A stretch of 37,673 nt of DNA. Origin: a virus. Below the pieces are notes generated by a model, which saw only the letters and a program-made list of their open reading frames with translations, had not been told where the DNA came from and did not search any database. Positions 7,855-22,735 of the stretch are shown piece by piece (positions within the stretch are counted from its first letter, which is position 1; each line of letters starts with the position of its first letter). Where the stretch lies: positions 1 to 37,673 of IMG/VR virus record IMGVR_UViG_3300001450_000100, one strand, 5' to 3'. The position numbers were made by a program, and so were the translations under genes.

Positions 7855-8000
7855 CGGACCGCTCGATATGGGGCGGCATCGGCGGCCTCATTACTGCCAC
7901 GGGCCTCGCCCAGTGGAGTCATCTGGCGAGCCTTGTGGCCGCCTGCTGCACGATAGTTTTCATGTGTATTCGAATTTTTCAAGTGCTAAAAAATAAGTGA
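7815..8000 (+). CDS. Holin-like small membrane protein, 61 aa
   Basis: 61 residues with a polar N-terminus, two hydrophobic stretches (about 19-33, WGGIGGLITATGLAQW, and 37-55, LASLVAACCTIVFMCIRIF) and a basic C-terminus (QVLKNK). Size and topology fit a two-helix (class II) holin, the protein that forms inner-membrane holes and times lysis. The start could also be GTG 7842; both lie inside the preceding small gene. Its TGA overlaps the GTG start of the tail hub gene. No endolysin is recognised nearby, so the holin call depends on topology and neighbours only. Confidence 0.55.
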   Translation: MLERRGSQNVELLADRSIWGGIGGLITATGLAQWSHLASLVAACCTIVFMCIRIFQVLKNK

Positions 8001-10048
8001 GTCGATACAGGTCATATGGAAAACTGGACGACCAGCCTGTCGTAGACGGGGATCGGGCCTTCCTGGGCTTCGGTTCGTTTCGCGATGCCGGCAGTATTCC
8101 CGAAAACTATTTGGCCGAGTCCCAAAACCTCCGCCTAGAGACAAATTCGGCTATAGTCCGGAAGGGGCTTAAAAGGCTAACTTCAGATGCCACGGTTCTC
8201 GGGGCTACAGTCCTCGCCTCGACCTTCTACCGCGATCCCGCGAGTAGTACGGAGTACGTGGTTCTGGCCTGCTCCGACCGAGCCTATTTTGTTAACCCGG
8301 CAGACGGCTCGAAGAAAACCATTTTATATGCAGGCGGCGAAACGGCTGCGGCGGGCTGTATGCTCATGCAGGCGTTCCACTACTTATTTCTCTGGCGAAC
8401 CGATTCGCCGGCATTGCCTTTTACTCTGCCAACGACCCTCGGCAAATATCCGTTGATCTTCGACGGCGACGACTTGGCCGGGCTAACAGTAACGGGAGCC
8501 ACGAATGTCTCGCCCATAGTAGTTACTACCGCCGCCCATAATTTCGCAACGGGCGACAAAGTAAACGTCAGCGGCGTGGCTGGAAACGAGGCCACGAACG
8601 GGGATTGGCAAATCATCGTCACTTCGCCCACGCAGTTCAGCCTTACCGGCTCCACCGGGGACGGAGCGTTCTCGGGCAGTGCCGGAATCGTCAGCGAGTC
8701 GAAGTTCGAGCGCCCAATGACTTCCCAAATTACCGCCGCAACGAACGCCACCCCGATAGTCGTAACGACTGCCGGCACTCACGGGTATACGACCGGCGAT
8801 TCGGTAAAAGTGGTCGAAGTTCTGGGCAACACGAACGCCAACGGCACTCGGGTAATTACCGTCCTATCCTCCACCACTTTCAGCTTGGACGGCTCTACTG
8901 GAAATTCCGCCTACACCGGCGGGGGATACGTTTCCAGCGAGAACTCGACAATACCGCCGAGCAGTTATGCCATTTATGCCTCGAATCGGCTTTGCGTTTT
9001 GACCGGGCGGGATACGGTCCGGTTTAGCATGTTAGGCGATCCGAATCTATTCCGCTACGAGGACCAAAATACTTTCAACGCCGGAGACTCCGACGTAATT
9101 ACCAGCCTGTCCCCCATCGAGGGCGATGCCCTGCTAGTGGGGAAGCGGCGGAGTCTACTGGTAATGACTAGCATCTCGGACTTGTACGGGCCGAATGAGA
9201 TGACCTCTGAAATCTCCAACCAGTTCGGCATAGTAGCCCGCGAAACCGTTCGTCAGGTAGGCGGCCTAATATTTTTCCTGAACGACTCCGGAGTTTACTC
9301 GGTAAACGCCGCCGTAAGAGGCTCCAGCCGGGTAGGCACTCCAGTCGCATATTTGCAGATTACGGACGACCCGATTTCGGCTGACATCGAGGATGAGATC
9401 GAGGCAATCAACTTTACTACGGCCCGGACTACGGCCTGCGCCGTAGTGGCGTCGAACCGTTACTATTTGGCCGTCCCTAGCTCTGCTTCGGGCAACGACA
9501 AAATCCTGATATACAATATCGTTCTGAATAGCTGGGAGAGCGTCGACACGCTCCCTGCCGGCGTCTACGTCGACAATTTAATCCGCATCATTTATAATAA
9601 TCAGCTCCGAGTCGCGGCAATCTGTTCGTCGGGTAAAATTCTTCTGCTGGAGGAAGAGACGGACGGGAACGATCAGTACGGGAACGGGACTGAGCCGTCA
9701 GAAGTTGCGGTGGACGCCAAAGCCGTTACTAGGCTTTACCGGGGAGGCGACGTGTCGAGCGTGAAGCGCTGGAAAATCGCTACAATCGGAAGTACGACCA
9801 AGACCGCCGCCAGCACTAAATTTCGGATATTAGCAAATACTCGCGAACCGGACTCGGCCTCGACCGAGCTGGGAGAGTTTACGACCACGGCAATCGAAGA
9901 GGACTTTCGCCGACTGGGCATCCGCCAGCGGGGCAACGGCATTCAGCTTACCGTCGATAACGGGGCAAGCGCCGCCGGTCGGTGGGAATTACGAGACATT
10001 TCAATAGAGGGCCACACCGGCTCCAGACAACGCAGGAGCTACGCATAA
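7997..10048 (+). CDS. Tail hub/nozzle beta-propeller-like protein with two E1-FCCH-like domains, 683 aa
   Basis: The start is GTG, overlapping the previous TGA. The N-terminal block (FGSFRDAGSIPENYLAESQN then IVRKGLKRL) and the later repeats resemble tail hub or P22 gp10-like stabilisation proteins: serial beta blades with recurrent tyrosine/aspartate strands (ASNRLCVLTG, GDALLVGKRRSLLVM, GGLIFFLNDSGVYSV, ASNRYYLAVPSS, KILIYNIVLNSWESV). Residues about 161-234 and 243-313 are two copies of the E1-FCCH-like module also inserted in the capsid protein, here as adjacent blades or side domains. It probably forms the tail tube end that contacts the cell surface. The exact family is uncertain. Confidence 0.7.
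   Translation: MSRYRSYGKLDDQPVVDGDRAFLGFGSFRDAGSIPENYLAESQNLRLETNSAIVRKGLKRLTSDATVLGATVLASTFYRDPASSTEYVVLACSDRAYFVNPADGSKKTILYAGGETAAAGCMLMQAFHYLFLWRTDSPALPFTLPTTLGKYPLIFDGDDLAGLTVTGATNVSPIVVTTAAHNFATGDKVNVSGVAGNEATNGDWQIIVTSPTQFSLTGSTGDGAFSGSAGIVSESKFERPMTSQITAATNATPIVVTTAGTHGYTTGDSVKVVEVLGNTNANGTRVITVLSSTTFSLDGSTGNSAYTGGGYVSSENSTIPPSSYAIYASNRLCVLTGRDTVRFSMLGDPNLFRYEDQNTFNAGDSDVITSLSPIEGDALLVGKRRSLLVMTSISDLYGPNEMTSEISNQFGIVARETVRQVGGLIFFLNDSGVYSVNAAVRGSSRVGTPVAYLQITDDPISADIEDEIEAINFTTARTTACAVVASNRYYLAVPSSASGNDKILIYNIVLNSWESVDTLPAGVYVDNLIRIIYNNQLRVAAICSSGKILLLEEETDGNDQYGNGTEPSEVAVDAKAVTRLYRGGDVSSVKRWKIATIGSTTKTAASTKFRILANTREPDSASTELGEFTTTAIEEDFRRLGIRQRGNGIQLTVDNGASAAGRWELRDISIEGHTGSRQRRSYA
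8481..8935 (+). repeat. E1-FCCH-like domain copies 2 and 3 (in tail hub)
   Basis: Two tandem beta-rich modules of about 70 residues (8481-8700 and 8725-8935), each with the pattern PIVVTTAxx...TGDxVxVxxVxGNxxxNG...TxFSLxGSTGxxAxxG. They share the pattern with the copy in the capsid protein at 4017-4218. Confidence 0.7.
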
Positions 10049-15814: not shown

Positions 15815-18800
15815 ATGCCTACGCTGCAAGAGGAGTACGACGTTCTCGCCGGAGAGCTTCGGGGATTGAACGTCAGGCTGGATTTGCCGGAAGATGACGG
15901 CATCTCTCAAGCCCAGCCCATCGGCGCGGAGTACGATGCCCTCGCCGGAGAGCTTCGAGGATTGAACGCTAGGCTCGGCCTGCCGGAAAATGACGGCATC
16001 CCGCTGACTTCGTCCGCAAACTCGGAGTACGAGAATCTAGTTCAACAAAACAATGCTCTGGATCAAAGACTCTCCGCTCTCTTTCCGACCTTCGACGAAT
16101 GGAACGCCGAGCAGGATGAACTGGACAAGCGGTCAAACTGGGAAGCGACGAAAACCTTTGGCAGCAATTTCATTACAGGGGCAGGGGCAATGTTGGACGA
16201 GGGCGGCAAAGCCCTCGATGAAATCACTTCGGGAAAGGCCGGCTGGGACTCCCTCGGGGGAATCTGGGAAGTGGGCAAGCGGGATTTTGTTCGATTCGCC
16301 AAGACTATGGGCGGAGCCGCCGAGGATTGGCTTCCGACCACCGAGTCCGAAAGGTCTAGGGAATATCGCCGGGCAAAAGAGAATTTCGATTACTACCAGA
16401 CGGTCAGGCCGCTCATGGTCGATGCAGTCGGAGGCGATGCCAAGAATCTAGTTTCTTTCGGCGCGCAGTTCGTTGACCCGTTTATGGCATTGCCTGTCGC
16501 CGGAGTTGCGGCAAAGGTCGGGGCAGTCGGGCTGAAAAGCGCGAGGCTCGGGCGAGCTGCGGCGGCACTCGACAAAGTCGGGGAAGTTGTGTCGCTCCCC
16601 TCGGAAGCAGTCGCGGCGGCCACTCGCAAGGGGCTGAAAGGAACGGCTTACGTTGCCGGAAAGGCGGCGGGCCTAGTCGGGACGGCCGGAGGAGGAGTCG
16701 CCAAGCTGGCCGGGCTTCCTAGAGAATTGACTACTAAACTTGCAAAAAAAGTCCTCCCCGAAGCGGCATCGGAAGGGGCCGGGGGCGCGCTTTTTGCCAG
16801 TCAAATTCTTGGTGGAGCTTCCGGAATGTTGCCGGGAGCAGCGGAACTGGGAATAGGAGAAATTGCCGGCTTTATCGCCAACAGGACGGGCAAGGGATTG
16901 GAATCAGTCCTTACCACTTTAGCCGCTCCGGGCGCGCAGCAAAGATTCCTGCAAAGACTCGCCCAGACGGCGGAGTCGCCTCGTATGCGTAGGCTGGCTT
17001 TGATAGCCCATCGAAAAGGGCTGACTAAAGCCGGCGACGTTGCATTCAATTCGCTGGTCAACGGGGCTTCCATAGCCAGCATAAACGGGGCGTTGGCCTA
17101 CTTGTCGGGAGAATCAGCCGAAGGCATCGGGCAAGCCGCAGGGGCCGGCATGGTCATGGGCGGAGCGCTACCATTCGGCCAGCCGGGCCAAAAAGCCGGC
17201 AAAGCTCAAAGCAGTCGAGACGCCACTTCGATAAATTATCTCGAAGGCAAGCTGGCTTCCGAGCAGGTAAAAGAGTTTAGAAAGTTAACGCCTGAAGCTC
17301 GCCTTGTCGCCGCAACTGCCGAAGAAGCCGGCATTCCCATACCAAAGTTATTTTTCGTAGACTCTAAAATGTTTCTCGACCTCATGCGGCAGGACGACCC
17401 GAACGCTCGGGAAGCTCAGTCGGCCATGTACGACCCCCAGGACAAGACGATCTACGTCAACCAAGACATCAGCTCGAAATCCTCGTCTCGGGCCGTCATG
17501 CAGATGTTTACCGAGGAGCTGGGCCATCATTTCATTACCGAGGCCATTAAGACCGATCCTATGTTCGGGCATCAGATTCTGGCCGAATATAAAGCTAAGG
17601 AGGGGGAAAAGTCGCACACTTTCATATTTGAGCGCGATCCGGACGGAAATCCTTTGCGGACCATCGAAATCAACGAAAAGGGCAAGAAGCTGGCAGATGC
17701 CTATAGCTCCATCTCGGACGACGTCAACGTAGGGATAGGAAACAATGCGAACCTGCTCGCCCAAGAAATCGGGGCGGCTCAGTTCAGCATTATGATGGAT
17801 GAAAATCCAAACCTCTTTCCGCACTTGGCCCAGCCGATCCGCCATAAGCTCGTAAACGCCTCCCAGAAGATTCTTTCCCTGATGGGGATTACCGACAAGT
17901 TCGGCAACACTTTACCCCTGAACATCGCCTCGAAGCTCAAACGCTCGCCCGCCATCCGCAATCTTTACCGCAATTACCTGAAGCAGCGGGAAATGCACAT
18001 GGCCGGGAAGATCGACCTCGCGGAAAAGGGGCAGAGCATCCCGCTCAAGCGGGGGGAATCGCCCGAAGCCGGAGCCGAACGCCTGTTCGGAGCTACGGGA
18101 CTTTCCCTGAAGGACGCCAAGGCATTCGTCATAAACAACAGGCAAATCAAGCGCGAGTTAACTAAACTCAAGAACCAATACCAAGACGCGCCGGCAGATG
18201 GATGGAGCGTAGTTCGGGGCAGGCTGATCGGCAAAGAACTAACGCCCGACATGCGGGCAATCCTTACTCGGACCAATCCGGACCCGAGGGGCAGCGTAAA
18301 CATCATCATAAACGACGTTCAGGCCGCGATTGCCGATAATAGCGAAGTTAACTTTCTCTTTCGTTCAGGCAAGCCGAGTAAGTATAGCGACAACGAGCTT
18401 AAAGTTAGAGTAGTCGCTCCCGTAGGGCTGGAATTTTCCGGCATGGCGGGGAAGGGGGCGGCTGGGTTGTATATGCAGGGCATGGACATTGCCTACCTCA
18501 AGAACAACGTCGAGGTTTTGGTCCAAGAAGGATTCATCAAAGACCCGGATAAATTTATAGCCGAAGCCCGGCAAGTGGCAAAGAATGCAGTCTCCGACCC
18601 GGAAGGCCGCATCAACCCGGAAGGCAAATTCGAGAACGAACTAATTACCGTTGCCCTCGGAAACAAAGCGTCCGCCGATTTCATCAAAAATCCAAAGCTC
18701 GCCAGACTATTGGAAGAAGGCCGCCTGCAACACTCTTTCCGCCAATACCATATCGGCAGTCTCGCGGGGATAGCTTTGACCGGCAGACCCGGCATCGGAT

Positions 18801-21800
18801 TCGACTGGTACAACGTTAAAAGGAATTACTCGCCGCACGGCAGGAACTTCATGCCCCGCCGAAAACCCAACCAACCCGACGACACGATTCCGCTTCCATT
18901 CGACGAGCTTCCCGGAGACAAGCCCGGCGAAGGCTTCGGGCGAATGATAAACGTCGACCGGACCAAGGCGGAGATGGCTGAGGCCAAGAAACTCGGCGAG
19001 GCTCAGAGCGGCTTTTCTAGTTCGGGGACGGTCCGAGCTAAGAATGCGGATGGGCGGGACAAGCTGTTTATGCCGGCCGCCTACCACGGGACTCCGCACA
19101 CTTTCAAGGCCGAGGAGGGAGCGCCACTGGGCCGATTCAGGTCGGCTCAGATCGGAACGGGCGAGGGCAGGCAAGCATTCGGGCATGGGCTTTACTTTAC
19201 TAGTCGAGCGATGTTGGGAGAACACTATCGGCAGAACTTAACTAAAGACCGTTTTGGCGGCTCTCTCTACAAAGTCGAACTCGCCCCAAAGGAGAATGAA
19301 TATCTGCTTTGGGACACGCCTTTGTCCGATCAGCCAAAAGGGGTACAGGAGAAGCTATTGAAGCTTGGACACGAAATGCATGAGGTGGGGGCTTTCACCC
19401 AAGGAAAAGCTATTCCCTATCGAGATGGGTTTGATTTTCACATGAATGGAGGCCAACTGTATTCCGGGAAGAAATGGAAGGACGGCACGTTCCGCTTCAA
19501 GGGGCTTTCGTCCCTGCTGGGGGGAAAGCCCGAAGCCTCCGCCGCCCTAAAAGCGGTCGGCATTCCCGGCATCAAATACCTCGACGGACAGTCCCGAGGA
19601 AATCATCGAGCGATCCGCGAAGGGAAAGCCACGTTCAACTACGTCCTCTTCGACGAGGCAAATGTGGCCATTACCGACAAGCTGTTTATGCCCGCCGAAA
19701 GCAAGGGCCAGCGAAAGAAAATTCTACTGCGGACGAAGCAAGAAATGAGCGATGCGGTGGACAGTCTCGCAGCCGAGCGTGGGATCAGCCGGAACGATGC
19801 CCTGAACGAACTCCTGAACTCGGCCCTGCTCGACCCAAAGATGTCAGTGGGCAAGCGGTCTGAAGGTGATATCACCTTGGCCTTGACGCCGGAAGAAATC
19901 GCACTGCTCGAAAAAACTGAAATCGGCCCGGAAGAGAGCGCCGATTATAAGGCGGCCATCGCAAAAAGACGGGCGATTTCCGAACGTGAAATAGGCGTTA
20001 AAAATAGACTGTATATGCCCGCCGACCGCGCCCTCGGACTTCCGGACAACATTCGGGACGAGGTATTGCCCGGAATAAAGCAGGACAAATTTAGCCGGGG
20101 GCAGCTTGAAGCGGCCCTATTGAAGTCGGCAGGCTCGAAAGCCTACGCCGAGGAGATCGGCCTCATGGACTGGCTGAAGGACCGCAAGAGCGTGACTAAG
20201 GCAGAGGTGGACCAATTCGTTCGGGAGAACGCTCCGAGGCTGGAGGAGAAGAAGATTTCCGGCAAGGAGGCTGACGTAAGCCTAAGAGAGCAAGACCGAA
20301 CAAGGATCGAGAGCGGGGACGAAGTAATACAAATAGACGCCGAAGGCGATTATTTTACAATAACAGTCGATGAGGATGCGGGAAACGTGCACGTCCAAGG
20401 AGATGGCGGTAAGTTTTTAGAACTTGATGCTCCAATAAATCGACAAACGGAGCAAGACGGCTGGCGGGCAATAGAAAATCATTATAGGGAGAAGCAAGGA
20501 CCGCCCACCAAATTCTCCGAATACCAAGAACCGGGCGGGACGAATTACCGGGAGGTGCTGATCAAGTTGCCGGAGAAATCGGCAAATAATCCGGAAATGC
20601 AAGCTCTCAGGCAAGAGGCTCAATCAATCCTCGAAAAGAGGCAAGCATTTGAGGCCGAGGGGAGGATTGGCGAGAGCAATGCCCTTTCCAACAAGCATAA
20701 CTCAATAAATAGAAGAATCCAATATTTACAGTCGCAGGATAATTTCCGCGATCCCCACTTCAACGAGGACAACGTCCTGCTCCACCTTCGCCTGAACGAC
20801 CGCATCGACGCGAACGGCAAGAAAGTCCTTTTCATCGAGGAACTGCAATCCGATTGGCATCAGAAGGGGCGGAAGGAAGGGTATGACGTGCCGCTTAGTC
20901 CCAAGGAGGAAAAGGCGCTGAAGGATAGGTTGAAGGAAATCCAGAAAGAAAGAGAATTGACATGGAAAACGCCCAATCGACTCAGAGAATTAGAGGCAGA
21001 GCAAACTGCCATTAACGAAAAGTTACTTGTGCCGGGAATCCCAGACGCCCCGTTCAAGAAGAACTGGCCGGCCCTCGGCCTCAAGCGGGCAATCCGCGAA
21101 GCCCTCGAAAACGGCTATGACCGAATCGCATGGTTGGACGGCGAGGGTCAGGCGGCGAGGTATGATTTGAGTCAGCACGTAGATAGTATCGTCTATGTTA
21201 AAAACAAGAACGGGACTTACGACGTCGAAGTAATAGTGGATCGTTCGGTTGAAGTGGGTAAAGACAATCAATCCCCACGGCAACTGGAGGAATTGGTCGG
21301 CAAGGAAGTTGCCCAGAAGATAACTGAAGGGGAGGGGAGTAAACCCGACGACTATAACAAGAGGCAAAGTTATCGGGGCCGACTGGGGGGATGGAAAGAA
21401 CTCTCCGGCCTCGACCTCAAGGTAGGCGGCGAGGGCATGAAGGCATTCTATGACCGCGAACTCGTCTCCATCGCCAACAAGATCTCAAAGAAGATAGGCG
21501 GGGGGAAGGTCAGGCGGGAGAGGGTAACGGGGACAGGCAACGACCGGCCTCGCACTCCCCAGATTGGAGTTTTAGTCACGAAGCAGTTCGGCTCCCACGT
21601 CCTCGACCTCCCGAAGAATCCGCAGGCCGTCGAGAATCTCAGGCTCTACATGCCGGCCCAGAAAGCCCCGTCCGACTCGGGAGTCCCGACCATCCTGAAG
21701 GATGCGAAGGGCAGGGGAGCGCTAGCTCAGCCGAGGGCAATCGAGAGCGGATTTGGAACTGAAAACATAGACGCTCCAAGATTCGTGGATAAAGTGCTGG

Positions 21801-22735
21801 GCGACTTGAAGGTCGACGTCCAGCGTACTAATTTTGAAAAGCCTGAAGTCAATTTAGCTGACCACTACGGCAAGAATGCGTTAATCACTATGACGGATCG
21901 AACGCCGACCGATCATGTGATTTATGGGATTAACGACGTGCAGTTTAAAACGCCGTTGAGATTGGAGGGCGGTCGAGACTATATGTTTGATTCGGCGCAC
22001 TCGCCGGGAGCGGCATGGGCCAACGAACAAGGGGCAATGACCGCGATGCTTAATCGAAGGGGAAAATTAGGCGGAGAGGATATGCTCGTAATACCTATGG
22101 AAATGGCTCCCACGTCAGTAGATTTCCCGACAATGGCTCCAGCTTTACATATAAGGTACGCCCAAGTGGCCATGAAGTCGAAGGATAAGAGGTATGTAAA
22201 CAGTTTAGTAAAGAAGGGGGGGAAGGGCTTTTTAACTAAATCTCAAGATCAAGTCAAAGTCCCAAAGTTTGATATTGATATGGAAAACGTAGAGGCTTTT
22301 TTAAGTAAACTGTCTGGGCCACAAAGAAAAACGATTAACAATGTTTTTGATATGGTAAACCGACCCTCCTCGGCTCAGAAGGGAAAAGGCGTTAGACAGA
22401 TAGACGGGGCTTTGTCGAACTTTGAAATGCGGGCGGCAATTTCCGATCCCGCCATGTTCAATCAAAAAAGTTTGATGCAAACGACAAACGTCGGGCTGAT
22501 GACAGGAGGACAAGCACCTTCCATGCATTCCACTTATAACGCAGCTATGAAGGGAAAAGGGCTTGGCGTTTTAAAAGTCCCCGAAGGTTTTCAACCTAAA
22601 GCCCAAGATTTCCTGCCGGACTTATTTAAGAAGTCGAACAAAGACTATGTCCATCCTAATGACGCTTATACGACAAGGATGGGAGTAAGGACCACTAAGA
22701 TTGATGATGCTCTTCTGAAGCGTTTAGGGCTTTAA
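15815..22735 (+). CDS. Giant polyvalent ejected protein (zincin-like, ART-like, RHH-like and LPD domains), 2306 aa
   Basis: Domain order, rough residues: two 32-residue repeats at 7-62; helical Gly/Ala-rich, membrane-prone region 110-450; zincin-like domain about 510-720, with EELGHH (567-572) where HExxH is expected and a possible third ligand in LAQEIGAAQ; unassigned 730-1010; ART-like domain about 1088-1288 (YHGTPHTF and GHGLYFTSRAMLGEHY); possible ribbon-helix-helix segment about 1295-1335 (LAAERGISRNDALNELL); a conserved large-polyvalent-protein domain about 1560-1940 (LFIEELQSDWHQKG, DAPFKKNWPALGLKRAI); C-terminal domain 1975-2306 (ALITMTDRTP, GRDYMFDSAHSPG). The motif [KR]L[FY]MPA precedes modules. 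Polyvalent proteins are thought to be injected and to act on the host cell. Functions are inferred from the families. Confidence 0.8.
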   Translation: MPTLQEEYDVLAGELRGLNVRLDLPEDDGISQAQPIGAEYDALAGELRGLNARLGLPENDGIPLTSSANSEYENLVQQNNALDQRLSALFPTFDEWNAEQDELDKRSNWEATKTFGSNFITGAGAMLDEGGKALDEITSGKAGWDSLGGIWEVGKRDFVRFAKTMGGAAEDWLPTTESERSREYRRAKENFDYYQTVRPLMVDAVGGDAKNLVSFGAQFVDPFMALPVAGVAAKVGAVGLKSARLGRAAAALDKVGEVVSLPSEAVAAATRKGLKGTAYVAGKAAGLVGTAGGGVAKLAGLPRELTTKLAKKVLPEAASEGAGGALFASQILGGASGMLPGAAELGIGEIAGFIANRTGKGLESVLTTLAAPGAQQRFLQRLAQTAESPRMRRLALIAHRKGLTKAGDVAFNSLVNGASIASINGALAYLSGESAEGIGQAAGAGMVMGGALPFGQPGQKAGKAQSSRDATSINYLEGKLASEQVKEFRKLTPEARLVAATAEEAGIPIPKLFFVDSKMFLDLMRQDDPNAREAQSAMYDPQDKTIYVNQDISSKSSSRAVMQMFTEELGHHFITEAIKTDPMFGHQILAEYKAKEGEKSHTFIFERDPDGNPLRTIEINEKGKKLADAYSSISDDVNVGIGNNANLLAQEIGAAQFSIMMDENPNLFPHLAQPIRHKLVNASQKILSLMGITDKFGNTLPLNIASKLKRSPAIRNLYRNYLKQREMHMAGKIDLAEKGQSIPLKRGESPEAGAERLFGATGLSLKDAKAFVINNRQIKRELTKLKNQYQDAPADGWSVVRGRLIGKELTPDMRAILTRTNPDPRGSVNIIINDVQAAIADNSEVNFLFRSGKPSKYSDNELKVRVVAPVGLEFSGMAGKGAAGLYMQGMDIAYLKNNVEVLVQEGFIKDPDKFIAEARQVAKNAVSDPEGRINPEGKFENELITVALGNKASADFIKNPKLARLLEEGRLQHSFRQYHIGSLAGIALTGRPGIGFDWYNVKRNYSPHGRNFMPRRKPNQPDDTIPLPFDELPGDKPGEGFGRMINVDRTKAEMAEAKKLGEAQSGFSSSGTVRAKNADGRDKLFMPAAYHGTPHTFKAEEGAPLGRFRSAQIGTGEGRQAFGHGLYFTSRAMLGEHYRQNLTKDRFGGSLYKVELAPKENEYLLWDTPLSDQPKGVQEKLLKLGHEMHEVGAFTQGKAIPYRDGFDFHMNGGQLYSGKKWKDGTFRFKGLSSLLGGKPEASAALKAVGIPGIKYLDGQSRGNHRAIREGKATFNYVLFDEANVAITDKLFMPAESKGQRKKILLRTKQEMSDAVDSLAAERGISRNDALNELLNSALLDPKMSVGKRSEGDITLALTPEEIALLEKTEIGPEESADYKAAIAKRRAISEREIGVKNRLYMPADRALGLPDNIRDEVLPGIKQDKFSRGQLEAALLKSAGSKAYAEEIGLMDWLKDRKSVTKAEVDQFVRENAPRLEEKKISGKEADVSLREQDRTRIESGDEVIQIDAEGDYFTITVDEDAGNVHVQGDGGKFLELDAPINRQTEQDGWRAIENHYREKQGPPTKFSEYQEPGGTNYREVLIKLPEKSANNPEMQALRQEAQSILEKRQAFEAEGRIGESNALSNKHNSINRRIQYLQSQDNFRDPHFNEDNVLLHLRLNDRIDANGKKVLFIEELQSDWHQKGRKEGYDVPLSPKEEKALKDRLKEIQKERELTWKTPNRLRELEAEQTAINEKLLVPGIPDAPFKKNWPALGLKRAIREALENGYDRIAWLDGEGQAARYDLSQHVDSIVYVKNKNGTYDVEVIVDRSVEVGKDNQSPRQLEELVGKEVAQKITEGEGSKPDDYNKRQSYRGRLGGWKELSGLDLKVGGEGMKAFYDRELVSIANKISKKIGGGKVRRERVTGTGNDRPRTPQIGVLVTKQFGSHVLDLPKNPQAVENLRLYMPAQKAPSDSGVPTILKDAKGRGALAQPRAIESGFGTENIDAPRFVDKVLGDLKVDVQRTNFEKPEVNLADHYGKNALITMTDRTPTDHVIYGINDVQFKTPLRLEGGRDYMFDSAHSPGAAWANEQGAMTAMLNRRGKLGGEDMLVIPMEMAPTSVDFPTMAPALHIRYAQVAMKSKDKRYVNSLVKKGGKGFLTKSQDQVKVPKFDIDMENVEAFLSKLSGPQRKTINNVFDMVNRPSSAQKGKGVRQIDGALSNFEMRAAISDPAMFNQKSLMQTTNVGLMTGGQAPSMHSTYNAAMKGKGLGVLKVPEGFQPKAQDFLPDLFKKSNKDYVHPNDAYTTRMGVRTTKIDDALLKRLGL
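15833..16000 (+). repeat. Two 96-bp-period tandem repeats at start of giant gene
   Basis: Bases 15833-15904 and 15929-16000 encode near-identical segments EYDxLAGELRGLNxRLxLP followed by ExDGI, period 32 codons. A degenerate third unit (EYENLVQQNNALDQRL) follows. The helical repeat may dock the protein in the virion core. Confidence 0.8.

Follow-up and report, generated by a model that had tools for sequence, protein, structure and literature searches.

Polyvalent proteins of phages and plasmids are huge multidomain chains, and autoproteolytic release of their domains by embedded peptidases has been proposed (Iyer et al. 2017, PMC5512222). Giant phage proteins may act whole or as released parts: according to the same paper, DdrB and DarA of P1 are proteolytically processed before packaging, and the N4 RNA polymerase is not. 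Here we analyse a 37.7-kb phage record from IMG/VR (IMGVR_UViG_3300001450_000100, 37,673 nucleotides, referred to as the window), whose genes include those for capsid, tail fibre, DNA polymerase, primase and terminase, and which encodes a 2306-residue polyvalent-type protein with a short repeated peptide, or tag, between its modules. In the lineage of the window the tag has the consensus [KR]-x-[FY]-M-P-[AS], and across the family such tags mark the joints and persist when modules are shuffled. Since every joint is predicted by a tag that is specific to its lineage and visible in the sequence, the question of whole versus parts becomes directly testable.

The original prediction had placed five tags at residues 1010, 1083, 1289, 1398 and 1943, bordering ART-like, RHH-like, lineage-specific and C-terminal modules. 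Translation of the open reading frame (ORF) reproduced all five positions exactly, and the borders are as described. When the whole chain was scanned, no [FY]MP was found beyond these five. Composition predicts 0.0002 occurrences of [KR]L[FY]MPA in a protein of this kind, and an unbiased scan for repeated 5-mers returned L[FY]MPA as the top repeat (log10 p ~ -12.7; the best repeats of other proteins lie at about -6 to -7), which together rule out chance or low complexity as the source of the tags. Because relatives carry the variants ENFMPR, ALFMPR and SLYMPR, the RNFMPR at residue 1010 is no outlier; what the tags have in common is the core [FY]MP, and the last residue is variable.

Relatives were gathered through an ART alignment, which gave 80 loci, and through a DNA pattern for KLFMPA, which gave 86 stretches; single loci are referred to below by L numbers. 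In about 40 distinct relatives from IMG/VR, [FY]MP tags lie at the ends of modules. Within the ART-alignment set, 25 proteins hold 67 strict tags, where 0.57 would be expected. Of the ends of BLAST segments, 40% fall within 20 amino acids of a strict tag, compared with 6% when the tags are shifted. With module ends placed by anchors outside the tag, [FY]MP was present at the C-terminal end of the first ART module (ART1) in 23/23 copies, and at six further types of module end in 4/4, 5/5, 6/6, 4/4, 23/23 and 21/21 copies, counts that are inflated for single-tag cases since the proteins had been preselected for at least one [FY]MP[ASRQ]. At the N-terminal end of ART1 it was present in 12 of 25, and the 12 exceptions listed read [FY][ITH]PA. 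Around the zincin-like domain of the N-terminal part it occurred in 4 of 42, and inside modules in 0/22 and 0/3. Enrichment at domain borders in homologs had been put forward as a check on the original prediction, and it holds: tags lie at module ends and the interiors lack them. Thus, as in self-processing polyproteins, similar short sites mark the borders of the units.

The tags also stay in place when the modules around them change. In the larger set, the sequences ahead of 135 tags fall into 32 clusters and those behind them into 29, paired in 64 different ways, and the main upstream cluster (mostly ART C-ends) precedes 14 different downstream clusters; these clusters were built by single linkage and are somewhat coarse. 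For example, the sister protein L001 is 91% identical to the window protein up to residue 1094 and then continues with a different module right after KLFMPA. In L003 the lineage-specific module lies ahead of the ART-like module, opposite to the order in the window, and each joint is tagged. The tags are confined to these proteins: we counted 136 in 80,091 residues of tagged proteins and 2 in 72,528 residues of other ORFs of the same loci (0.87 expected). On this ground, and as no prohead protease was found in Pfam and PHROG scans covering most of the larger ORFs of the window, we rejected the site of a general phage maturation protease. Seven matches in phage records, the best of which aligns over 19% of the query in a single segment, lack [FY]MPA tags, so no cultured tagged phage was found.

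Phage lineages differ in their joint tag. In large polyvalent proteins that lack [FY]MP behind the ART module (28 in all), the ART flanks match better within than between proteins (mean 15.9 vs 12.5; 0 of 5000 permutations as extreme), and matched flanks recur in eight proteins of prokaryote genomes from GTDB (17/5000). Proteins shorter than 1000 amino acids, mostly with a single ART module, gave no such effect (1176/5000). As examples, L195 has RFQPV twice and RFQPD once, L193 has four copies of ATFSL/TTFSL, L242 has LFSLK and LFSLR, and L095 has AKFAA and AKFAV, while among the prokaryote-genome proteins LASKR occurs twice in L292 and TLFQA/TLFQT occurs in L264. Joint tags of the LFQ type were noted in L264, L272 and L010 (TLFQA/TLFQT, DSLFQ/DRFYQ, DILFQ, EILFQ and DLLFQ); we take these to resemble 3C-type cleavage sites.

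We favour, with a probability of roughly 45%, the reading that the tags are recognition sites between modules and candidate processing sites for an embedded peptidase, and serve in addition as joints for module exchange. The window protein would then belong to a family of mosaic phage polyvalent proteins made of interchangeable modules, each bounded by a short tag specific to the lineage, and one phage-encoded factor would recognise that tag. The likeliest reader would be the zincin-like domain in the N-terminal third, either of the same chain or of a co-packaged copy, which might cleave the chain at its tags, be it before ejection, during it or afterwards, so that the effectors (ART-like, DNA-binding and others) come free as separate units. 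As the same tag ends every module, it would serve as a ready-made in-frame recombination joint, and such a shared joint would in turn lead to module shuffling and to the copying of codons inside the tags. The 2306-residue protein is probably injected into bacteria; its link to the virion comes from the position of its gene after ORFs that probably encode virion proteins. For annotation, the tags predict exactly where the chain may be cut and where the modules of many unknown domains begin and end, and they show how phages exchange effectors in frame.

Several observations point to the zincin-like domain. Tagged proteins with an intact N-terminus carry an HExxH zincin-like motif ahead of the joint tags, with a conserved third ligand, and 44 of these domains form one BLAST cluster. 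[FY]MP is present in 38 of 38 distinct proteins of this zincin clade and in about 2 of 58 ART proteins without it, an association that is uncorrected for shared ancestry and in which some loci had been retrieved by means of the tag. HExxH also lies ahead of the ART module in several proteins whose tags are of other kinds. The third-ligand Glu of the following helix (E651 in the window protein, within EhhA) is invariant. The model of the domain (predicted local distance difference test, pLDDT, 72.5) gave weak fold matches, many of them to HExxH metalloenzymes; they were too weak to name a family. Judged from sequence, proteolysis by an embedded peptidase fits best with the position of the tags, their lineage specificity and their co-occurrence with the domain, and it agrees with the suggestion of Iyer and colleagues that domains are freed by peptidases in the same chain (PMC5512222).

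A number of points weigh against this reading. The window and L001 have EELGH where nearly all relatives have HExxH (65 H vs 3 E), and both lack the acidic residue after EhhA, Ala taking its place in the window and in this 91% sister, yet all of their tags are intact. EELGH in particular counts against self-cleavage of the window protein: for its tags to be cut, either a carboxylate-liganded site or a different enzyme would be required; alternatively, the ability was lost recently. The TFS[IL] group likewise carries tags, yet in it Glu stands for one His of HExxH or for both (HExxE, EExxE, EExxH); the nine rows that align there, in a loose alignment at about 25% identity, read HEKTH, HEVIE, HEHVE, HEVVE, EEKTE, EEKIE, EEHAE, EEFLE and EESAH, with His or Glu in every one. 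Similarity to the zincin fold is weak (Foldseek E 0.013; VIA Z of 5.9 at best), and the association of tag and zincin could come from shared ancestry alone. Finally, the N4 virion RNA polymerase is packaged unprocessed although it has an MPTase domain (PMC5512222), which calls for caution in assuming cleavage. The proposal that the motif is a protease cleavage signal is plausible in view of the conserved residues, the upstream zincin-like domain and lineage-matched tags like those of polyproteins, and is weakened by the altered HExxH of the window and of a group with another tag.

Replacement of His at HExxH by Glu, and only by Glu, occurs in separate lineages (the window, L001, L044, L049, L042, L073, L192, L052, L058 and L065). 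In these alignments the pattern looks more like a change of metal ligands than like decay. A broader claim, that injected phage proteins are true polyproteins with lineage-specific cleavage codes, in which each module joint bears the tag of its lineage, read by a zincin-like domain of the same chain that changes in step with it, and that the tags double as in-frame sockets for effector exchange, strikes us as possible and rather doubtful.

The main rival takes the tags for recombination joints and nothing more: short stretches held in common, at which modules were exchanged or duplicated, maintained through descent and copying and without function in the protein. We consider this somewhat unlikely. 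In its favour, modules occur in varied orders with tags at their joints, and tag codons are homogenised within genes: unrelated joints in one gene share synonymous codons at 0.605, where codon usage predicts 0.350 (0.421 vs 0.315 between genes), and in L018 and L036 the Pro codon is CCT in 6/7 tags, though CCT makes up 11-16% of Pro codons. Some joints also share longer stretches, such as DQT[KR]DGGNV in L076. The idea of a remnant of module exchange in the original prediction is well supported by the same reordering and homogenisation. Several points weigh against recombination as the whole explanation. Met and Pro do not vary at homologous ART C-ends, where the codon for Pro is saturated (CCG/CCA/CCT/CCC = 9/6/6/1), which argues for selection on residues; the wobble base of this codon (in the window, for example, 19073-19075) is nearly random, and adjacent wobble positions are conserved. 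Inside some genes with many tags (L018, L036), in turn, this base is uniform. Phe/Tyr and Leu/Met/Gln vary as residues would, again pointing to selection at the protein level. In addition, six codons are short for homologous recombination, and the tags are intact in relatives of just 28-50% identity. We also considered strong DNA-level conservation around the tag and rejected it, as wobble positions are equally conserved inside the ART module, hence not in a tag-specific manner, and the Pro wobble is unusually variable. From these sequences, the tags seem to be under constraint at the protein level and, at the same time, to have been copied at the DNA level.

Further readings of the tag are less likely. 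It could be a docking or sorting motif that ties each module to a virion component, a chaperone or the ejection channel and is never cleaved. The tag is an aromatic short linear motif, three of the tags are predicted to lie in unstructured linkers of low pLDDT, and tags are lineage-specific and repeated many times per chain; but docking does not require a tag at every module border, no partner is known for it, and P1 DarB reaches the capsid through a capsid localisation signal rather than through tags at every joint (PMC9024508), so that we rate this as clearly unlikely. It is more improbable still that the tag belongs to the domains, for example as a cap or final strand of the ART-like one, and is repeated because several modules are related: in many lineages the ART C-end does carry, soon after the last strand, an aromatic residue and then M, Q, S or A, but this tag also stands ahead of the ART-like module and at the borders of the unrelated RHH-like and lineage-specific modules, and tags match better within a protein than between proteins. 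As for the invariant ATG of the tag being an internal start codon from which modules are also made separately, the purine-rich upstream [KR] codons and the strong Shine-Dalgarno-like sequence at some tags are countered by the commonest tag, which has none, and by ART N-end joints, half of which lack the ATG. Shine-Dalgarno strength at the tags is like that at other internal ATGs (p 0.11), and on this ground we rejected internal translation starts, which we regard as very improbable.

The window protein is a very large chain of several unrelated domains, some of them resembling effectors, as polyvalent proteins are, and its modules are found separately in other combinations. Its N-terminal ~1000 residues are 44-51% identical to those of L018, L028, L030, L031, L035 and others (blastp). 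The ART-like module matches PHROG 873, while the window protein has no Pfam match to PF18760 (ART-PolyVal); the relative of this module in L018 stays below the cutoff of that family (16.9 of 31.2 bits), and the second ART of L028 and L036 passes. The core of the RHH-like module (~1306-1336) has weak matches (Pfam E 0.8, PHROG E 0.003), and the module recurs in L014, L018, L026 and L029. The structure model of the ART-RHH region is poor overall (pLDDT 49), with all three of its tags in low-pLDDT linkers, whereas the RHH core is confident (helices at pLDDT 82-96).

Table of features of the tagged protein (positions in the window)
Feature	Position	Strand	Residues	Remarks
Polyvalent-type protein with tags	15815..22735	+	2306 in all	single ORF, translated; preceded by three ORFs, probably for virion proteins
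N-terminal part	15815..18841	+	1-1009	contains the zincin-like domain; common to relatives (blastp)
Altered zinc motif EELGH	17513..17527	+	567-571	DNA gag gag ctg ggc cat
Third-ligand region EIGAA	17765..17779	+	651-655	Ala replaces the acidic residue of EhhA[ED]
Tag variant RNFMPR	18842..18859	+	1010-1015	
Tag 1, KLFMPA	19061..19078	+	1083-1088	ahead of the ART-like module
ART-like module	19079..19669	+	~1089-1285	AYHGTPH...NYVLFDEANVAIT; PHROG 873, relatives, ART alignment
Tag 2, KLFMPA	19679..19696	+	1289-1294	separates ART-like and RHH-like modules
RHH-like module	19697..20005	+	1295-1397	weak Pfam RHH_1, PHROG 4738
Tag 3, RLYMPA	20006..20023	+	1398-1403	
Lineage-specific domain module	20024..21640	+	1404-1942	PHROG 7348
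Tag 4, RLYMPA	21641..21658	+	1943-1948	
C-terminal module	21659..22732	+	1949-2306	95% identical stretch in L002

Some further features were noted in passing. At the N-terminus of the window protein (15833-16060, residues 7-82), a near-identical EYD[VA]LAGELRGLN occurs at residues 7 and 39, spaced by 32 amino acids, together with a diverged third copy. In L076 the two joints that flank the ART module (~1155-1166 and ~1475-1486) share DQT[KR]DGGNV[LM][LM]S, as though insertion of the module had gone along with duplication of a segment. Elsewhere in the window, 7997-10048 encodes a structural protein of the virion that matches the E1_FCCH domain (PF16190, E 3.9e-16), and 1683-2078 encodes a small PD-(D/E)XK endonuclease (PF11645, E 1.3e-11) flanked by structural genes.

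In the literature searched we found no description of such tags, a search that left most subscription papers outside and so does not prove their absence. The passages of PMC5512222 consulted likewise do not describe a repeated joint tag. The phage and plasmid polyvalent proteins presented there resemble the window protein in being huge and multidomain, in combining ART-like, lineage-specific and zincin-like domains, and in adjoining virion genes; what sets the window family apart is the lineage-specific tag that marks its module ends. P1 DdrB and DarA are similarly large and, in the same paper, reported to be processed, but no tag series is described for them, and the mapped P1 processing site lies in the capsid protein (E120/S121; PMC9024508). 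The N4 virion RNA polymerase is comparable as a giant virion protein with an MPTase domain (PMC5512222). The polyproteins of eukaryotic RNA viruses are not homologous to the window protein, whose candidate peptidase is zincin-like and altered, but they share its layout: short similar sites at domain borders that vary between lineages, and a peptidase in the same chain.
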